Source of the DNA: Mariprofundaceae bacterium
Lineage (GTDB): Bacteria; Pseudomonadota; Zetaproteobacteria; Mariprofundales; Mariprofundaceae
DNA length: 64,000 nucleotides
Direction: 5' to 3'
NCBI GenBank assembly: GCA_021772895.1
Contig: JAJFLC010000012.1
Coordinates: 248,001-312,000, forward strand
In this document: positions 30,396 to 38,893 of the stretch, piece by piece
Position numbering within the stretch: position 1 is the stretch's first letter
How the letters are laid out: each line of letters opens with the position of its first letter
Translations under genes and position numbers: made by a program
Notes under the pieces: model-generated
Seen by the model: the letters and a program-made list of their open reading frames with translations, nothing else
What the model was told of the DNA's origin: nothing
Database searches by the model: none

Positions 30396-30477
30396 TATCA
30401 AAAATTATAAACTTGAATGCCAAAATCGGACATTCGCAAGCCCAAAATATTCCGGTTATTGATATCAACCTTCCAAT

Positions 30478-30514
30478 AAAACCGATTGACAATCGGTTTT
30501 ATCCTCTCAATTAT
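30478..30514 (+). promoter_or_regulatory. Operator over the -35 box of the blaI-like gene
   Basis: AAAACCGA-N7-TCGGTTTT at 30478-30500, extended to a perfect 12-base-arm inverted repeat at 30476-30502. The centre contains TTGACA (30486-30491), a perfect -35; 17 bases later AATTAT (30509-30514, or the overlapping ATTATA) can serve as -10. A repressor bound here would block RNA polymerase. The same half-sites with the same spacing recur at 31990-32012. Confidence 0.7.
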
Positions 30515-30559: not shown

Positions 30560-30967
30560 GTGCTTCCAGTGAAACGACAAAACCTTGGCGAATTAGAAAT
30601 GGCTGTCCTGGAACATCTTTGGGTTACTAAATTTGGAGATGCCAAGGGAGTACATAACAGTGTCGGCACTCAGCGCGGTATTTCTTTAAATACGATTCAG
30701 TCTACTTTAGAACGATTATTTAAAAAACAACTTCTTCGTCGTGAAAAGGTTAGTCATTCATATCTTTATTCTCCATCCGTTCAAAGAGAGGAGCTTATAA
30801 CTCAATTGATTGATGATGTGGTTAAATCACTTTCAGGTGGAAAGTCGGATTATATGTTATCGGCATTTGTTGATTTTGCTGCGCGTGCTGATGAATCCAG
30901 CTTGGATCGATTAGAGCAGCTGATTGCTCAACGGCGTGCTGATAACTGTCCGGATGAAAAAGGATGA
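30560..30967 (+). CDS. BlaI/MecI/CopY-family transcriptional repressor
   Basis: 135 residues, GTG start nine bases after AAGGAGA. A winged helix-turn-helix of the BlaI type: LGELEMAVLEHLW, then the recognition region ISLNTIQSTLERLFKKQLLRREK and the wing SHSYLYSPS, followed by a helical dimerisation tail. In BlaI/MecI a protease cut between the two domains relieves repression; in CopY copper does. It overlaps the M56 protease gene by four bases and precedes metal-efflux genes, so it probably represses this cluster, including itself. Confidence 0.9.
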   Translation: MLPVKRQNLGELEMAVLEHLWVTKFGDAKGVHNSVGTQRGISLNTIQSTLERLFKKQLLRREKVSHSYLYSPSVQREELITQLIDDVVKSLSGGKSDYMLSAFVDFAARADESSLDRLEQLIAQRRADNCPDEKG

Positions 30968-31950
30968 GTAGCTATTTTGGGTTGTTCCAGTTTGGTCTGC
31001 TCGCCAGCTTTGGCTTCGCAGCTCTTACGGCCCTTGTAAGTCTCGCTGTTTATCCACTTGTCCGACAGCGATTAATTGTATTAGCACCAGCACAGCGCTC
31101 CAATATCCTGCTGGTCTGGTTGCTTGCTCCTGCATTTATCGGATTGCTGTTTACCCTACTTTGCTTCATGCCTTCATTCTTTAGTTTATTGGGGGTGGTT
31201 CAAGATCATTGCAATGTACACGATGACCATTTGCATTTCTGCCTGATTCACCCGCCACTGCCCGTAGATAATATGATTTCATGGGCTCTAATCATTATAT
31301 TGGGAGGGGTAGTGGTCATTTTTGCTGGAATTTACACCCTTGATCTTGTACGTGCGTATCATTTTCATAAGAGTTTGATGATGACAAGTAGATATCATGA
31401 CGAGCATGATATTCACGTAGTCGAATGCAGTAGATTACTTGCTATTTCAGTCGGTGTTTATCGTATGCGTGTGTTTATATCTAAGCGACTGATGCAAATC
31501 CTCACATCAAAGCAGCTGGATGTTGTGCTTGCACATGAACAAGCACATTCACGTCGAAAAGATGTATTGCGACACTTGGTGGGACGCACGCTTTCATTTG
31601 CTCACATACCATGCTTACGCAGACACTTGCTGGCAGATATGGATCTTGCATGTGAACAGGCATGTGATGAGGTTGCTGCAAATAGAATAGATGATCGGTT
31701 ATATGTAGCCGATACCATTGTCTTTATTGAGCGTTTGTTTAGTAAACAGCAATTGCCATTCACAGCTTTGTCCATCACCGGTAGTAATATCAACCAGCGC
31801 GTGGAATCACTATTGCTCGAACCTGCTGCTTATGTTCCTGCATATAGGGCTTACGTTCTTATTGGCGCTATTCTGCTGATTGCTTCGTTTGCTTCTGTTG
31901 ATGGACTTCATCATCAAACTGAATCCATATTTGGACTCCTGACAAGGTAA
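30964..31950 (+). CDS. M56 (BlaR1-like) membrane metalloprotease, putative metal sensor
   Basis: 328 residues with about five transmembrane helices. The zinc-protease motif is HEQAH (191-195) in LAHEQAHSRRKDVLRHL, with the further acidic ligand likely in ACEQACDEVAA. Between the second and third helices a short loop is packed with possible metal ligands: H82, C83, H86, H89, H91, C93 and H96. The large C-terminal penicillin-sensor domain of BlaR1 is absent; only a single final helix and short tail follow. It probably cleaves the upstream-encoded repressor when the loop binds metal; this is inference from the family and context. Confidence 0.88.
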   Translation: MSSYFGLFQFGLLASFGFAALTALVSLAVYPLVRQRLIVLAPAQRSNILLVWLLAPAFIGLLFTLLCFMPSFFSLLGVVQDHCNVHDDHLHFCLIHPPLPVDNMISWALIIILGGVVVIFAGIYTLDLVRAYHFHKSLMMTSRYHDEHDIHVVECSRLLAISVGVYRMRVFISKRLMQILTSKQLDVVLAHEQAHSRRKDVLRHLVGRTLSFAHIPCLRRHLLADMDLACEQACDEVAANRIDDRLYVADTIVFIERLFSKQQLPFTALSITGSNINQRVESLLLEPAAYVPAYRAYVLIGAILLIASFASVDGLHHQTESIFGLLTR

Positions 31951-31957
31951 GATAGAC

Positions 31958-33298
31958 ATGTTTAATTCACACACCATTTACATAGAAAAAAAACCGACCT
32001 ACCATCGGTTTTTTGGTTCCATACTACTAGTAGGATTGTCTATGTTAGTGCTTCCTTCTGTTTCTTCAGCGGAGAAAGACCAAGGGTTGCTCACTCTTGA
32101 GAAGAGCATTCGGCGAATTGTAAAAATTGCACCGGAAATGAAAGCCGCTGATGCAGAAATTGGTAAACAACAGGGGAAGTGGGAACAGGTAGATGCCTGG
32201 CCAAACCCGAGTATAAGTATTCAGGTAGCTGATAATTTGAGTCGAGAAGTTGGTGGCAGGGGATATGATGTTACTGAGTTGGCAATTTCTCAACCCCTGC
32301 CGCTGGGTCGCTTAGTATATCAACGCCAACAGGCGGAGGCTGGAATCGCCAGTGCTGAGGCTCAGCGCAAACATCAACAATTAATATTGGAATATAAGGT
32401 TGCGCAGCTTTTTCATACTCTTCAGCTCAAAGAAGCCATGCTCCGACTGGCTAAAAAACGCTTTCAACAGGTAAGTCATTATCAAAATGGCAGCCGAAAA
32501 AATCACAGCGGTGATCCACTGATTCGTTATCTAACACCTTTGGAGACCATGCGACTGGATATTATATCGCAAGCAGCAAAACAATCCGTGGAAGTGGCTG
32601 AGGGGAAGTTCAGTGATACGGCAGCCAGTCTCAAGGCTTTGCTAGGGGCTCCAGTAGATGATAAGCTAAGTTTGGTGCCTCTAATACCGGTGCCAACACC
32701 GGAGGGGTTCGACATTCTGGAAAAGAGTTTGAAAAGTCATCCGGCATTGGAAGCTGATAAACTGACTGCCGCATCATCGGAGTCAGGAGTTAATGTGGCC
32801 AAGTGGCAGCGTTTTTCTGATCCGACTTTAACTTTCTTCAGAAGGAATGAATTTCTCGCCAATCGCCGACAGCAAGATACTGGTATTATATTGAGTGTAC
32901 AGGTTCCACTTTGGAATCAGAATAATGGCGGTGTTACACAGGCACGCCACGCAGTTCATCAGGCGCAAGCCGCATTGGATATCAACCGGCGTGAACTGCA
33001 AAGTAATCTGCACACGAGTTATTCTCACCTCGGTCATCTGATTGAACAAGCCGAGCATTATCGCACCAAGCTGCTTCAGCCTGCCCAGCAGGTTTTTAAA
33101 CTTACTCGCAAGGGGTTCGATGCCGGTGAGCTGGATATTCTCACTCTCATTGATGCCAATAACACTTATTATGACGCACAAGCACGTTACCTGACGTTAT
33201 TGCAGGAAGGCTGGTTGGAGTTGGCTGTGGTTCGTAGATCGGCGGGATTATCACTGTTCACCAGTAACTCTGTAACTGATTTCAGCGTGGTGAAATAA
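31958..33298 (+). CDS. TolC/CzcC-family outer-membrane efflux channel
   Basis: 446 residues. A signal peptide ends near VSSAEK (about residue 38, with an unusually long n-region) and two outer-membrane efflux protein repeats of long helices follow (LEKSIRRIVKIAPEMKAADAEI; later LNRREL-type and FDAGELDILTLIDANNTYYDA, a CzcC hallmark). It should provide the exit duct for the RND pump encoded two bases downstream. AAGG precedes the ATG. The second regulatory dyad lies inside codons 11-19. Confidence 0.88.
   Translation: MFNSHTIYIEKKPTYHRFFGSILLVGLSMLVLPSVSSAEKDQGLLTLEKSIRRIVKIAPEMKAADAEIGKQQGKWEQVDAWPNPSISIQVADNLSREVGGRGYDVTELAISQPLPLGRLVYQRQQAEAGIASAEAQRKHQQLILEYKVAQLFHTLQLKEAMLRLAKKRFQQVSHYQNGSRKNHSGDPLIRYLTPLETMRLDIISQAAKQSVEVAEGKFSDTAASLKALLGAPVDDKLSLVPLIPVPTPEGFDILEKSLKSHPALEADKLTAASSESGVNVAKWQRFSDPTLTFFRRNEFLANRRQQDTGIILSVQVPLWNQNNGGVTQARHAVHQAQAALDINRRELQSNLHTSYSHLGHLIEQAEHYRTKLLQPAQQVFKLTRKGFDAGELDILTLIDANNTYYDAQARYLTLLQEGWLELAVVRRSAGLSLFTSNSVTDFSVVK
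31990..32012. promoter_or_regulatory. Second copy of the AAAACCGA-N7-TCGGTTTT dyad
   Basis: Same half-sites and same 7-base spacer as the operator at 30478-30500, here flanked by extra A and T so that a 10-pair hairpin with a U-tract could also form (31988-32014). It lies within the beginning of the channel gene. A nearby perfect palindrome CTACTAGTAG (32024-32033) follows. Either an intragenic operator or a terminator/attenuator separating regulator and pump expression. Confidence 0.6.
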
Positions 33299-33300
33299 TT

Positions 33301-36300
33301 ATGATTGATCGATTAATTCGTTTTTCATTAATCCAGCGTTTAATGCTCCTGCTGCTTGCCACCACACTGGCTGCTGGCGGCCTGTGGGCGTTTAAGACAC
33401 TGCCTATTGATGCCTTTCCCGATATCTCCGCACCTCAGGTGCAGATCATCGTCAAGGCTCCCGGACTGTCACCCACCGAGGTGGAAAGCCGCATCACGGT
33501 TCCCCTTGAAATGGAAATGCAAGGCCTGCCTCGGCAAACTGTACTGCGATCCGTGACCAAGTACGCATTGAGCATCATCAAAATCGACTTTGAGGATGGT
33601 ACCGATATCTATTGGGCGCGCAATCAGGTGAGTGAGCGGCTCAATCAGGCGTGGAATAGCTTACCCAAAGGTGTGGCTGGCGGGTTGGCACCTATCACAA
33701 CACCACTGGGCGAGATGTACATGTATCGCGTCGAGGGCGAGGGCTATAGCAACAGCGAACTCCGCGCCATTCAGGACTGGGTGATTCGCCCACGTCTGCG
33801 CACAGTTGCAGGCGTGGCTGACGTGAACTCTCTGGGTGGTGAAGTCCGTGCATTTGAGATTGTACCGGATCCGAAAGCATTGGTGCGATTTGGCCTGGGG
33901 CTGAAAGATTTGCAAATGGCGTTGGAAAAGAACAACCGTAACGCAGGCGGAGATCGAATCGAACGCGGCGACAAAATGCTGCTTGTACGTACCCTTGGTC
34001 TGTTACGCAACGAAGACGATATTCGTGGCGTTACTGTGACCACACGTAATGGTGTGCCGATTCAGCTCGGAGAACTGGCTACAGTGCAAATAGGGTCGCT
34101 GACCCGTTACGGTGCAGTCACCGCCGACGGTGAGGGCGAAGTGGTTACTGGCTTGGCATTGTTGAGGAAAGGCGCCAACAGCCGTACCACGGTTGAGGGG
34201 GTCAAGCGCGAACTGGAAGCCCTCAAGCCAACGCTACCCAAAGGTATCAAAACCCTTCCCTTCTATGATCGTAGCGAACTGGTGACGGCTGCTGTATGGA
34301 CGGTAGAAAAGGCATTGGGCGAAGCTGTGATTCTGGTCTTGCTGGTGCTTATCATCATGCTGGGAAATATGCGTGCAGCATTAACGGTGGCGTTGATTTT
34401 ACCGCTGTCGGTCCTGTTTACTTTTATCATGATGCGTTTAACCGGTGTATCGGCCAACCTCATGTCGCTGGGAGGTCTGGCGATTGCTATCGGGATACTG
34501 GTAGATGCATCGGTCGTCGTAGTGGAAAACATCCATACCCAATTGAGTCATGCCCCCAAAGGAGTCAATCGACTACATCTGATTTACCGGGCGGTTCTGG
34601 AAGTGGCAACGCCGGTAATTAGTGGGGTTCTGATTATCATTGTGGTATTCCTGCCGCTATTTAGCCTTACCGGTCTGGAAGGGAAAATGTTCACACCATT
34701 GGCGGTGACTATTTCTTTTGCGCTCGTCAGCTCTCTTATATTATCACTCTCGGTGATTCCCGTGATGGCCAGTTTACTCATGCGTGGTGGGCATGAGAAT
34801 GATGGCTGGTTGCTGAGTCTGCTGAAAAAATGTTATCGCCCTGTTGTTAGTTGGGCATTGCGCTTTCGTTTTATTGCCGTAAACACTGCACTGCTGGCAC
34901 TTGTTGGGGCTCTCGCTCTCTTCCCCTATATAGGCAAGGAGTTTATGCCTGTGATGGATGAAGGCTCCACCGTGGTGATTGTTGAAAAGGCTTCCGGTGT
35001 ATCGCTTACTCACTCAGTCAAAATGGATGCCCCCATTCAAAAGGCCTTTATGGAAATTCCTGAGGTTGTCGGTGTAGTTTCGCGAACCGGAGCCGACGAA
35101 CTGCGCATGGATCCCATGGGTTTGTATCAGACGGATAACTTTATCATCACGAAACCACGCGATCAGTGGACTGTTGATCAGGCTACACTGTTGGAAAAAC
35201 TTCGCGAGAAACTTGACCGGTTCGAGGGGCTTGATATTGCCTTTACGCAACCCATCGACATGCGAGTCTCGGAAATGCTCACTGGCGTGCGCGCGGCCAT
35301 GGCCATTAAGCTATATGGCGATGACTTACGTACACTGGAAACCGTGTCTACACAAATTGAAAAGCTGGTCACTGATACGGCTGGAGCGGTTGATGTGTTC
35401 CGTGGTCGTCTATCGGGGCAAACCTATCTGCAAATTGATCTGCTTCCGGCTGCCATCGCACGTTACGGCATCAATGTAGAAGACATCAACCTATTGGTGG
35501 AAACTGCAGTTGCAGGACAGGTGGCCACCGAAATCATAGAGGGTAACCGCCGTACGGGGGTCTTGCTGCGTTACCCACAAAACGCACGTACCTCGGTGCA
35601 AGATATCAAAGACTTACTCGTCGAGACCCCGCGTCGTGGCGTTAAAGTGCCATTACATTTACTGGCACATGTTCATGAGGTTGATGGGCCGGTGGAAATT
35701 GCCCGCGAGTCAGCTAAGCGTCAGGTAGTGGTACAGGCCAACGTCGATGGACGTGATGTGGTGGGTTTTGTAGAAGAAGTTCGCCGCAATATTGAAACCA
35801 ACGTGATTTTGCCGTCGGGGTATTATCTCACCTTCGGTGGGCAGTTTGAGAATCAGCAACGTGCTGCAAAGCGTCTAAGTGTGGTGGTGCCTATTGCCAT
35901 CGCACTGATATTTCTGATGCTGTTTGTCACGTTCCGCTCACTGCGTCAGGCAGGGTTGATTATTTTGAATATTCCATTTGCCATGATAGGCGGTGTGGTG
36001 AGTCTGTACTTGTCCGGGCTATATCTATCGGTTCCGGCCTCGGTGGGGTTCATTACATTGTTTGGTGTGGCAGTGCTCAATGGCGTGGTGATGGTGAGTT
36101 ACTTCAACCAGTTACGCGAAGCAGGGCGAAGCGTCTTGCAGGCGGTTCACGAAGGGGCTGAACGGCGACTGCGTCCGGTGTTGATGACTGCATTGATTGC
36201 CAGCCTTGGCCTCATACCACTGTTGTTTGCAACAGGCCCAGGCTCTGAGTTGCAACGACCACTGGCCATCGTAGTCATAGGCGGCCTGTTCACGTCCACT

Positions 36301-36393
36301 TTGTTGACCTTAATATTGTTACCCACCTTGTACGCCTGGCTGGAGGGACGTTCAGAGCGTCAGGCTCAACTCATTACGGAGGAACACGCATGA
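33301..36393 (+). CDS. HME-family RND heavy-metal efflux pump (CzcA/CusA type)
   Basis: 1030 residues with the duplicated 6-helix plus periplasmic-loop layout of RND pumps (first helix 11-30, loop to about 335, then helices; repeated in the second half, ending near 1020). In TM4 the signature reads AIGILVDASVVVVEN with D402 and E409. The first acidic residue of the Zn/Co/Cd-type DFGxxVDG motif is replaced by A396, giving a pattern nearer to CusA-type pumps, so a monovalent or unusual metal is possible. No gene for a periplasmic adaptor (CzcB/CusB) lies before or after it. Base composition looks more GC-rich than the flanking genes. Confidence 0.93.
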   Translation: MIDRLIRFSLIQRLMLLLLATTLAAGGLWAFKTLPIDAFPDISAPQVQIIVKAPGLSPTEVESRITVPLEMEMQGLPRQTVLRSVTKYALSIIKIDFEDGTDIYWARNQVSERLNQAWNSLPKGVAGGLAPITTPLGEMYMYRVEGEGYSNSELRAIQDWVIRPRLRTVAGVADVNSLGGEVRAFEIVPDPKALVRFGLGLKDLQMALEKNNRNAGGDRIERGDKMLLVRTLGLLRNEDDIRGVTVTTRNGVPIQLGELATVQIGSLTRYGAVTADGEGEVVTGLALLRKGANSRTTVEGVKRELEALKPTLPKGIKTLPFYDRSELVTAAVWTVEKALGEAVILVLLVLIIMLGNMRAALTVALILPLSVLFTFIMMRLTGVSANLMSLGGLAIAIGILVDASVVVVENIHTQLSHAPKGVNRLHLIYRAVLEVATPVISGVLIIIVVFLPLFSLTGLEGKMFTPLAVTISFALVSSLILSLSVIPVMASLLMRGGHENDGWLLSLLKKCYRPVVSWALRFRFIAVNTALLALVGALALFPYIGKEFMPVMDEGSTVVIVEKASGVSLTHSVKMDAPIQKAFMEIPEVVGVVSRTGADELRMDPMGLYQTDNFIITKPRDQWTVDQATLLEKLREKLDRFEGLDIAFTQPIDMRVSEMLTGVRAAMAIKLYGDDLRTLETVSTQIEKLVTDTAGAVDVFRGRLSGQTYLQIDLLPAAIARYGINVEDINLLVETAVAGQVATEIIEGNRRTGVLLRYPQNARTSVQDIKDLLVETPRRGVKVPLHLLAHVHEVDGPVEIARESAKRQVVVQANVDGRDVVGFVEEVRRNIETNVILPSGYYLTFGGQFENQQRAAKRLSVVVPIAIALIFLMLFVTFRSLRQAGLIILNIPFAMIGGVVSLYLSGLYLSVPASVGFITLFGVAVLNGVVMVSYFNQLREAGRSVLQAVHEGAERRLRPVLMTALIASLGLIPLLFATGPGSELQRPLAIVVIGGLFTSTLLTLILLPTLYAWLEGRSERQAQLITEEHA

Positions 36394-36698
36394 AACATCT
36401 AACACTTATTATTCGTACCAGTGTCCAACAGGATTTGGCTGATCAGCTACGTAGTCTGGAGCAGGTGTCAGGCTTTACTTTTAGTCATGCAGAAGGGCAC
36501 GGCGTACAGGTAGAAAGCGACCCCTTTCTTTCGGCGCGGGACAAGGTGGTCGGTTACACGCCGCGAATTCGGGTGGATATTTTGCTTCAGGATAGTGATG
36601 TGAATTCGGTACTCGACGCACTACGCAATACAGCATATGGCGTTAAAGGTCATGGTGTCTACTGGGTCACTGCCGTAGAAGAAAGTGGCCGCTTGTAA
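36390..36698 (+). CDS. DUF3240 family protein (PII-like fold)
   Basis: 102 residues, overlapping the pump stop by four bases. MKHLTLIIRTSVQQDLADQL and the closing YWVTAVEES strand fit DUF3240, a small ferredoxin-like/PII-like cytoplasmic protein commonly encoded next to HME-RND pumps. HAEGHGV adds histidines that could bind metal. It may sense or buffer the exported metal, or regulate the pump; the function is not established. Confidence 0.75.
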   Translation: MKHLTLIIRTSVQQDLADQLRSLEQVSGFTFSHAEGHGVQVESDPFLSARDKVVGYTPRIRVDILLQDSDVNSVLDALRNTAYGVKGHGVYWVTAVEESGRL

Positions 36699-37184
36699 GT
36701 GTTGAAAACACGAAATTATAACATGATGTTCAAAGCGATTACCGTAATCAGCATCATGGTTGGCATGGCGCCTCTCACCGGATGTTCGGCGCATACGAGC
36801 TTTGTTAAAGAAGAGAGCGTTACAGTAGAGCGTGTTAACTCGGGTAGTGCAAAGATCACTCGAGCTATCCTACAAACCAGAAAAACAACATTAGTGTTAT
36901 GGGGAAAATTGAGGCGTCATTTTCCTAGTCGGCGTTCTATACCCGGTCATTTACATATTGAATTGATTGGCCATGATGGTGTTGTATTTAAAGAGATCGA
37001 AGTTAGCTATAACAGAAACAGTATTAAATCTCGTTTTGCCAGATTCCACCTGGTGATTCCTAGTACGCTGGCGGACATGAGCCGCATACGTGTCGTTCAC
37101 CATGATGCCAGATCACACATGGCTGATTCGACTAAGTCTAAATATCGAGACGTAAACCAGACTAAACAGATGATGGAGACATAA
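36699..37184 (+). CDS. Putative lipoprotein of the metal-efflux cluster
   Basis: Up to 161 residues; GTG at 36699 directly after the previous stop, or ATG at 36723/36726. A signal segment with lipobox LTGC (Cys about 29) precedes a basic, beta-rich domain (HLHIELIGHDGVVFKEIEVSYN) and a His-containing end (RVVHHDARSHMADS). No family recognised. Periplasmic location fits a role alongside the pump, possibly as an accessory in the place of the missing adaptor, but that is speculation. Confidence 0.65.
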   Translation: MLKTRNYNMMFKAITVISIMVGMAPLTGCSAHTSFVKEESVTVERVNSGSAKITRAILQTRKTTLVLWGKLRRHFPSRRSIPGHLHIELIGHDGVVFKEIEVSYNRNSIKSRFARFHLVIPSTLADMSRIRVVHHDARSHMADSTKSKYRDVNQTKQMMET

Positions 37185-38545: not shown

Positions 38546-38893
38546 ATGCACAAAACATTTATATTTACCCTCGCTTTATTGCTATCACCATTACCGGCAC
38601 TAGCTGGAGGTGGTCATGACCATGGGCACTCTCATGGACCTGCTGAAATTACCCAGGACCAAGCTGTGACGATTGCATCAAAGCGCGTGATTATGCTGGT
38701 TGCCCAAAGTAAAATTCATGAAAGCTGGCAGTTGGTAATGCCTGCAAAATCAGAGAAAAAAATGTATGATGGTCATGCTGAATGGGTCGTTACTTACAAG
38801 AATAGCCAGGTGTCAGATTCAGCTAAGAATACGCTTTATATCTTCTTAAGCTCTACAGGTGATTATATTGCAGCTAATTTTACCGGTAATTAG
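38546..38893 (+). CDS. His-rich periplasmic DUF6488-like protein
   Basis: 115 residues. Signal peptide (1-20) followed by GGGHDHGHSHGPAE at the mature N-terminus, a likely metal-binding stretch, then a PepSY-like alpha/beta domain (ITQDQAVTIASKRVIMLV ... WVVTYKNSQ ... LYIFLSSTGDYIAANFTG), matching DUF6488 from memory. Probably binds the same metal as the pump. TAGGAG precedes the ATG. Confidence 0.75.
   Translation: MHKTFIFTLALLLSPLPALAGGGHDHGHSHGPAEITQDQAVTIASKRVIMLVAQSKIHESWQLVMPAKSEKKMYDGHAEWVVTYKNSQVSDSAKNTLYIFLSSTGDYIAANFTGN

Follow-up and report, generated by a model that had tools for sequence, protein, structure and literature searches.

A BlaI/BlaR1-type gene pair with a conserved His/Cys loop, predicted to sense metal and to control a heavy-metal RND pump in a member of the Mariprofundaceae

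The locus and its genes

In the window, i.e., the whole 64,000-nucleotide stretch of Mariprofundaceae DNA that was analysed, genes for a BlaI-type repressor and an M56 membrane protease precede those for a heavy-metal efflux pump. They all lie on the plus strand, in the order blaI, M56, tolC, RND permease, DUF3240, lipoprotein, hupE/ureJ and DUF6488, and the first two overlap by 4 bp:

30560..30967, plus strand: BlaI-type repressor, 135 aa, GTG start, PF03965 (Penicillinase_R)
30964..31950, plus strand: M56 (BlaR1-type) membrane metalloprotease, 328 aa, Pfam Peptidase_M56
31958..33298, plus strand: TolC-type outer membrane factor, 446 aa, PF02321 (103.9 bits)
33301..36393, plus strand: heavy-metal efflux RND permease (CusA/CzcA family), 1030 aa, TM4 motif AIGILVDASVVVVEN
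36390..36698, plus strand: DUF3240 (PII-like) protein, 102 aa, PF11582 (64.5 bits)
36699..37184, plus strand: predicted lipoprotein with no assigned function, 161 aa
37189..38325, plus strand: HupE/UreJ_2 membrane protein, 378 aa, PF13795 (171.3 bits)
38546..38893, plus strand: DUF6488 small exported protein with the sequence GGHDHGHSHG, PF20098 (72 bits)

The initial annotation had placed a BlaI-type repressor in front of the protease and a metal pump behind it, and profile searches bear out both assignments. The repressor contains the Penicillinase_R winged helix of PF03965 (73 bits, cut-off 22.6), and the permease matches TIGR00914 (CusA/CzcA) at 1079.6 bits against a cut-off of 701.45. The span 30560-31950, which had been given for the M56 gene, is right at its end; the M56 open reading frame starts at 30964, and 30560 is the start of blaI. 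A Pfam search assigned no family to the 161-aa lipoprotein (36699..37184), and it is uncertain whether the DUF6488 gene, which is preceded by a 220-bp gap, is part of the operon. A gene for a membrane-fusion adaptor is absent from the pump operon of the window, where the RND start at 33301 directly follows the tolC stop at 33298. Three adaptors of the CusB/HlyD type are encoded in the genome, all on other contigs and adjoining other RND genes. An adaptor gene is present in the pump operons of most relatives.

The nearest relatives that carry the operon are Mariprofundus and Ghiorsea MAGs (Zetaproteobacteria). The DUF3240 gene, whose PII-like product may serve in metal or nucleotide sensing, is also present in Mariprofundus and in Stenotrophomonas-type relatives, the HupE gene lies 3' of the pump in many relatives, and the DUF6488 gene stays nearby. 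In two Mariprofundus-type genomes (G043 and G051; loci L012 and L013), the BlaI-M56 pair immediately precedes DUF3240-HupE-DUF6488, and an RND operon lies a few kb further along.

The repressor and the M56 protease

The repressor matches the BlaI/MecI structures 1sd4, 1sd6 and 1okr. BlaI of S. aureus is cut between N101 and F102, with Phe102 in the P1' position (PMC9834060). A Phe in the corresponding place, F103, is kept in 40 of 42 relatives of the repressor, with Ala or Gly rather than Asn at P1, which makes the following site the predicted target of the protease:

codons 30863-30868, plus strand: predicted cleavage A102|F103 of BlaI, homologous to the BlaI cut site

The M56 protein scores 33 bits with Pfam Peptidase_M56 (cut-off 31) and only 19.5 bits with the NCBIfam BlaR1 model, the cut-off of which is 400. 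It keeps both parts of the catalytic signature; the second corresponds to the gluzincin motif E242xxxD of BlaR1 (PMC9834060):

31534..31548, plus strand: HEQAH zinc-protease motif, residues 191-195 (H191, E192, H195)
31654..31668, plus strand: E231xxxD235, second gluzincin motif

H191, E192 and H195 as well as the ExxxD motif are invariant in all 28 aligned relatives. A Pfam search revealed no penicillin-binding sensor domain in the 328 aa, and the protein ends approximately 18 residues past TM4. Thus, the HEQAH motif and the absence of a C-terminal penicillin sensor, both noted in the initial annotation, are confirmed, and beta-lactam sensing by this protein was rejected for want of such a domain. 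Many M56 relatives have A-F where BlaR1 has its self-cleavage site, S283-F284; the protein of the window has S-I there. A second M56-like match in the genome (G000:C4:124640) was discarded; it is weak, has no adjoining BlaI gene and no loop of the kind described below, and is probably HtpX-like.

An AF2 model of the M56 protein has a mean pLDDT of 80 and a pTM of 0.78. Its best fold matches in the PDB are all S. aureus BlaR1 (8exs, 8exq, 8ext, 8exp, and 8exr), with probabilities of 0.99-1.00 and low TM-scores. In the model, helices formed by residues 42-75 and 104-140 flank a loop rich in His and Cys, which is itself poorly determined (pLDDT <50 for residues 79-99). The corresponding loop of BlaR1, called EL1 (residues 56-96, between helices 2 and 3), initiates the signal when it is displaced (PMC9834060).

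A conserved His/Cys loop and C-terminal tail

Two segments of the M56 protein are candidate metal-binding elements:

31207..31251, plus strand: His/Cys loop H82-H96 between TM2 and TM3, with C83, H86, H91, C93, and H96 conserved in the alignment
31909..31923, plus strand: periplasmic C-terminal tail H316...E320, candidate extra ligands from the alignment

The loop contains H82, C83, H86, H89, H91, C93, and H96 within 15 residues, exactly as described initially. This density on its own is modest evidence, since 0.26% of composition shuffles also reach seven His/Cys within 15 residues. The strong evidence comes from conservation of the loop. Approximately 50 M56 relatives were gathered, most of them without the loop as bait, since one set was chosen by a single protease pattern, [VI]V[LIM][AE]HE[QL][AK]H, and the other sets by whole-protein profiles. 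Class- and order-wide searches of the window's own lineage reached just the same small clade. Identity to the M56 protein of the window is 54-64% among the orthologues in Zetaproteobacteria and ~30-37% in Gamma- and Betaproteobacteria, methanotrophs, Nitrosomonas and a desulfuromonad.

In the alignment of 28 sequences, C83 is present in 26/28, H86 in 25/25, H91 in 23/28, and C93 in 25/28. H96 is found in 22 of the 28 and is replaced by Asp in the other six, including the methanotrophs, and the adjacent P97 is present in 26/26. The conservation of C83, H86, H91, C93 and H96 (or Asp) comes close to that of the catalytic residues. H82 is only partially conserved (12/28), H89 is lineage-specific and confined to a few Zetaproteobacteria, and the remaining loop positions vary freely. 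Every aligned sequence has H316 in the C-terminal tail (28/28), and E320 is found in 21 of the 22 proteins where the tail is present. By analogy with the BlaR1 topology, tail and loop would face the same side of the membrane, which makes H316 a candidate extra ligand. The initial list of seven ligands is thus to be amended: five stand, H82 and H89 lose weight, and H316 and E320 are to be added as candidates. The initial annotation had made its proposal depend on conservation of the loop ligands among orthologues. The proposal survives this comparison in the reduced form, since five of the seven recur in Zeta-, Gamma-, and Betaproteobacteria, and most of the five in a desulfuromonad, beside several types of RND pumps.

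Three types of loops can be distinguished. Type A, CxxH...HxCxxHP, is that of the window. Type B, EHCHxxxCxxHxP, is found without a pump beside it, and type C, HWHH, which contains no cysteines, occurs in Glaciecola-like bacteria with a pump and with the same operon and operator as in the window. In the tree, types B and C are each compatible with a single origin (support 79/93 for B and 100/100 for C). Type B was seen at loci L050, L054, L074, L128, L129, L131, L147, and L148, with variant spacing in L128 and L147. At L054, the pair is followed by genes for small membrane and small exported proteins that, by eye, are ferric-reductase-like and PepSY-like. The 410-aa M56 protein of L062 has a greatly enlarged loop with a run of GAHxH repeats over dozens of residues, an extreme version of a metal-binding segment.

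Two operator-like palindromes

Two palindromes with the same core and a promoter-like sequence were found around the regulatory genes:

30476..30502: O1, 27-bp palindrome ATAAAACCGATTGACAATCGGTTTTAT, predicted BlaI operator, with a perfect core AAACCGA-N7-TCGGTTT at 30479-30499
30486..30514, plus strand: predicted blaI promoter, TTGACA (30486-30491, inside O1), a 17-nt spacer and AATTAT, 10/12 matches, the best of the region
31988..32014: O2, second palindrome AAAAAACCGACCTACCATCGGTTTTTT, predicted second BlaI site, in the first codons of tolC, with a perfect core at 31991-32011

O1 and O2 are read as predicted binding sites of the window's BlaI. TTGACA-17-AATTAT presumably represents the blaI promoter, with O1 covering its -35 box; TTGAC and a -10-like box at fixed spacing recur in type A relatives. 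In the genome of 2.45 Mb, O1 and O2 are the only perfect copies of AAACCGA-N7-TCGGTTT, and the other matches to the core have two mismatches and are at the level of a reversed-pattern control.

The pattern ACCGATTGNCNNTCGGT proved too stringent for O2 and returned background once two mismatches were allowed, and was replaced by the dyad ACCGA-N7-TCGGT. With this dyad, O1 was found in front of the blaI gene of almost every short relative that bears the loop, including those of types B and C. Most pump-linked loci have a second copy, O2, 35-60 bp past the stop codon of the M56 gene; in the window, the distance is 43 bp. Altogether, 52 matches were found in the O1 zone (about 50 loci) and 39 in the O2 zone (about 38 loci) vs. 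54 elsewhere in 1.43 Mb; a few of the zone matches are due to chance (two in long M56 loci and one in L149), and the totals are raised by near-identical mobile copies. The A/T tracts that flank the half-sites, outside the searched core, are also kept. O2 is absent where no pump lies directly downstream, i.e., in the Mariprofundus loci L012 and L013 and in the type B loci, which retain the BlaI pair and an O1-like dyad. A regulon search in genomes with an EHCH-type M56 protein gave no convincing targets except blaI itself. Since O2 lies inside coding sequence, the first gene past M56, which encodes either TolC or an adaptor, starts with an imposed KKPxxxRF-like peptide.

Other dyads lie in or close to the O1 region in L053 and L056, which are deep relatives. 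In L053 (Myxococcota), a TACTACGTCATGTAGTA dyad before blaI resembles classical BlaI boxes; this locus also has an RND pump and a loop similar to CHCxxxPxxHLCxxHP.

Association of the loop with RND pumps

Since many loci are near-copies on mobile elements, raw locus counts overstate independence. The association with pumps was determined after de-replication, for BlaI-linked M56 proteins with 5 kb or more of sequence downstream, and a loop was scored when at least four of 18 loop residues were His or Cys. The loop was found in 25 of 25 RND-linked pairs vs. 11 of 32 pairs without an RND gene (Fisher p = 1e-7, with shared ancestry remaining among the proteins). Some loop-bearing relatives thus have no adjoining pump. 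Protein length is another correlate: 42 of 44 short M56 proteins contain the loop vs. 4 of 34 long ones, and nearly all long proteins with other C-terminal domains are without it.

The pumps behind the same sensor pair have different TM4 signatures, i.e., DFGLIVDGAVIIVEN, DFGLLVDGAIIIVEN, ALGMLVDGAVVVVEN, and ALGALVDDAIIVVEN besides that of the window, and therefore the sensor pair appears to have been exchanged between pumps. A full BlaI-M56-TolC-adaptor-RND operon with both operators is located on a conjugative 530-kb plasmid of Pseudomonas aeruginosa (L008; CP109756.1, 400204-407362), and near-identical copies were found in Dyella, Comamonadaceae, Pigmentiphaga, and Dechloromonas, which suggests recent spread of this plasmid-type operon. 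Its presence on a conjugative plasmid in P. aeruginosa makes it relevant to the spread of metal tolerance.

Proposed mechanism and alternative explanations

Quite probably, the BlaI/BlaR1-type pair has taken on a new task, that of sensing a transition metal outside the inner membrane and controlling a heavy-metal RND pump. As long as cells are at rest, O1, over the -35 box, and O2, where the pump genes begin, would be occupied by a BlaI dimer, and the operon would be nearly silent. When periplasmic metal rises, it would be bound by C83, H86, H91, C93 and H96 of the TM2-TM3 loop, probably joined by H316 (and E320) of the C-terminal tail. Closure of this clasp would turn on the HEQAH protease in the cytoplasm, as EL1 relays the signal in BlaR1, and the activated protease would cut BlaI before Phe103. 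The cut repressor would then leave O1 and O2, and BlaI, the protease, TolC, the RND pump, HupE, and the DUF3240 protein would be made. Once the metal is gone, cutting would end, and newly made BlaI, autoregulated via O1, would restore repression. Computationally, this model is well supported, with metal binding, protease activation, induction, BlaI cleavage and repression as its predicted steps. An operator shared by two sites and the conserved Phe at the predicted P1' position of BlaI give the circuit stronger support than it had initially. Several observations count against the model: the low confidence of the predicted loop, the lack of an adaptor gene in the operon of the window, the cysteine-free HWHH loop of the Glaciecola-type lineage despite the same operon and operator, and the loop-bearing relatives that have no adjoining pump. 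As to the metal, the mix of ligands suits Zn, Cd, Co and Ni or Cu(I). The His-rich partners, i.e., the GGHDHGHSHG segment of the DUF6488 protein, His-rich adaptors in L012 and L031, and HupE, lean slightly to divalent ions, and a divalent ion (Zn, Co, Ni, or Cd) is slightly favoured over Cu or Ag.

Several other explanations were weighed against this model. It is very improbable that the repressor itself senses the metal like CopY, the M56 protein merely disposing of it or being vestigial. The repressor does score better with the CopY_TcrY model than with the BlaI/MecI models, but its 43.1 bits are far below the CopY cut-off of 121.95. Moreover, it has no C-terminal CxC, on which ground direct sensing of the CopY type was rejected, and no Cys column is conserved in its 42 relatives, in which only H32 and H66 recur; direct sensing is unlikely for lack of these cysteines, and the catalytic residues of the M56 protein are invariant. 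The two conserved loop cysteines, 10 residues apart, could alternatively form a periplasmic disulfide, as cysteines in this compartment are often paired, and C83-C93 might thus be a redox or thiol switch of the protease that is tuned by the histidines. However, at least three of the histidines match the cysteines in degree of conservation, in addition to H316, and the same operon type is kept in the HWHH lineage, which has no Cys, and in L031, which has one of the two. Together with the linkage to heavy-metal pumps, this makes a redox sensor decidedly improbable.

Similarly low is the probability that the protease answers membrane or envelope stress and that the loop binds a structural zinc. 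Such a non-metal signal would be consistent with the EHCHxxxCxxHxP-type M56 proteins that have no adjoining pump, but not readily with the strong association with heavy-metal pumps of several subfamilies, and a structural site is not expected to be confined to short proteins without another sensor domain. A further possibility is that the loop senses metal, but that O1 and O2 are not BlaI sites, O2 especially being an RNA hairpin, i.e., an attenuator or terminator, in the pump message. O2 indeed folds with its A and U tracts (-9.5 kcal/mol) and was called terminator-like on the minus strand. Against this explanation, which we consider unlikely, O1 has identical half-sites at the -35 region and would therefore not be transcribed from the predicted blaI promoter; the half-sites are conserved as sequence, as are the flanking A/T tracts beyond the searched core, and the genome has only the two perfect copies of the core.

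A broader version of the metal-sensor model may be considered. It is possible, if somewhat short of probable, that a class of minimal BlaR1 receptors is widespread in proteobacteria, in which EL1 and the C-terminal tail make up a metal sensor without a separate domain, and in which a two-operator (O1/O2) circuit holds HME-RND pumps shut and is passed between pump types and species. If so, these proteins would represent the smallest form of the BlaR1 signalling machine.

Comparison with known systems

In the cyanobacterial PetRP system, a BlaI/BlaR1-type pair, the protease is activated by copper (PMC7896320, PMC13421787, PMC10141476). Metal sensing by this chassis is therefore not new in principle, and to that extent copper-responsive PetRP (PMC7896320, PMC13421787) pre-empts the initial suggestion of a metal version as a different signal. 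BlaR homologues in Pseudomonadota without an assigned role have also been listed (PMC10141476). Like PetR and PetP, the repressor and protease of the window are encoded together, by genes that overlap by 4 bp, and by analogy the BlaI-type factor would be degraded by the BlaR1-type membrane protease upon exposure to metal. In contrast, PetRP governs plastocyanin and cytochrome c6, not efflux. Linkage to petE or petJ was not found at the locus of the window, where the neighbouring genes are those for TolC, RND, DUF3240 and HupE. No description of an efflux-linked BlaI-M56 pair, of its ligand motif or of its operator was found in the literature searched, which left most subscription papers outside its scope; these features appear to be undescribed in the searchable literature.

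CopY and TcrY of Firmicutes belong to the same superfamily of winged-helix repressors and also have metal efflux as their target. However, CopY binds Cu or Zn itself via CxC, whereas the repressor of the window lacks this motif and remains under the CopY cut-off, and the cop box of CopY, TACANNTGTA, differs from the operator of the window. HME-RND-class metal pumps are usually thought to be under the control of two-component systems, MerR/ArsR-type sensors or ECF factors. The regulation of Czc, Cus and Cnr, by two-component systems or ECF factors, resembles the present system in the class of pump and in periplasmic metal sensing; the difference is that the signal in the window is proposed to be transmitted by repressor proteolysis, not by phosphorylation or a sigma factor. 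A proteolytic switch of the BlaR1 type would thus be another route from periplasmic metal to a promoter, with the residues and DNA sites now named.

The beta-lactam-sensing pairs BlaR1/BlaI and MecR1/MecI of S. aureus share with the pair of the window the repressor and protease families, the HExxH...ExxxD signature and the TM2-TM3 loop, which carries the signal in BlaR1 (EL1), and they include the best fold match. The P1' Phe of the BlaI cut has a counterpart at the predicted site in the repressor of the window. The operator in the bla and mec systems is a TACA/TGTA dyad, whereas that in the window is ACCGA-N7-TCGGT, and the pair of the window is predicted to control a metal pump. Unlike BlaR1 and MecR1, its M56 protein has no penicillin-binding sensor domain, and a Cys/His loop and a short tail are in its place. 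The arrangement would thereby separate the BlaR1 signalling core from the drug-binding domain. Should a loop of ~15 residues suffice to trigger the protease, a smaller protein would be at hand in which to test how BlaR1 is activated by loop movement, a long-standing question.
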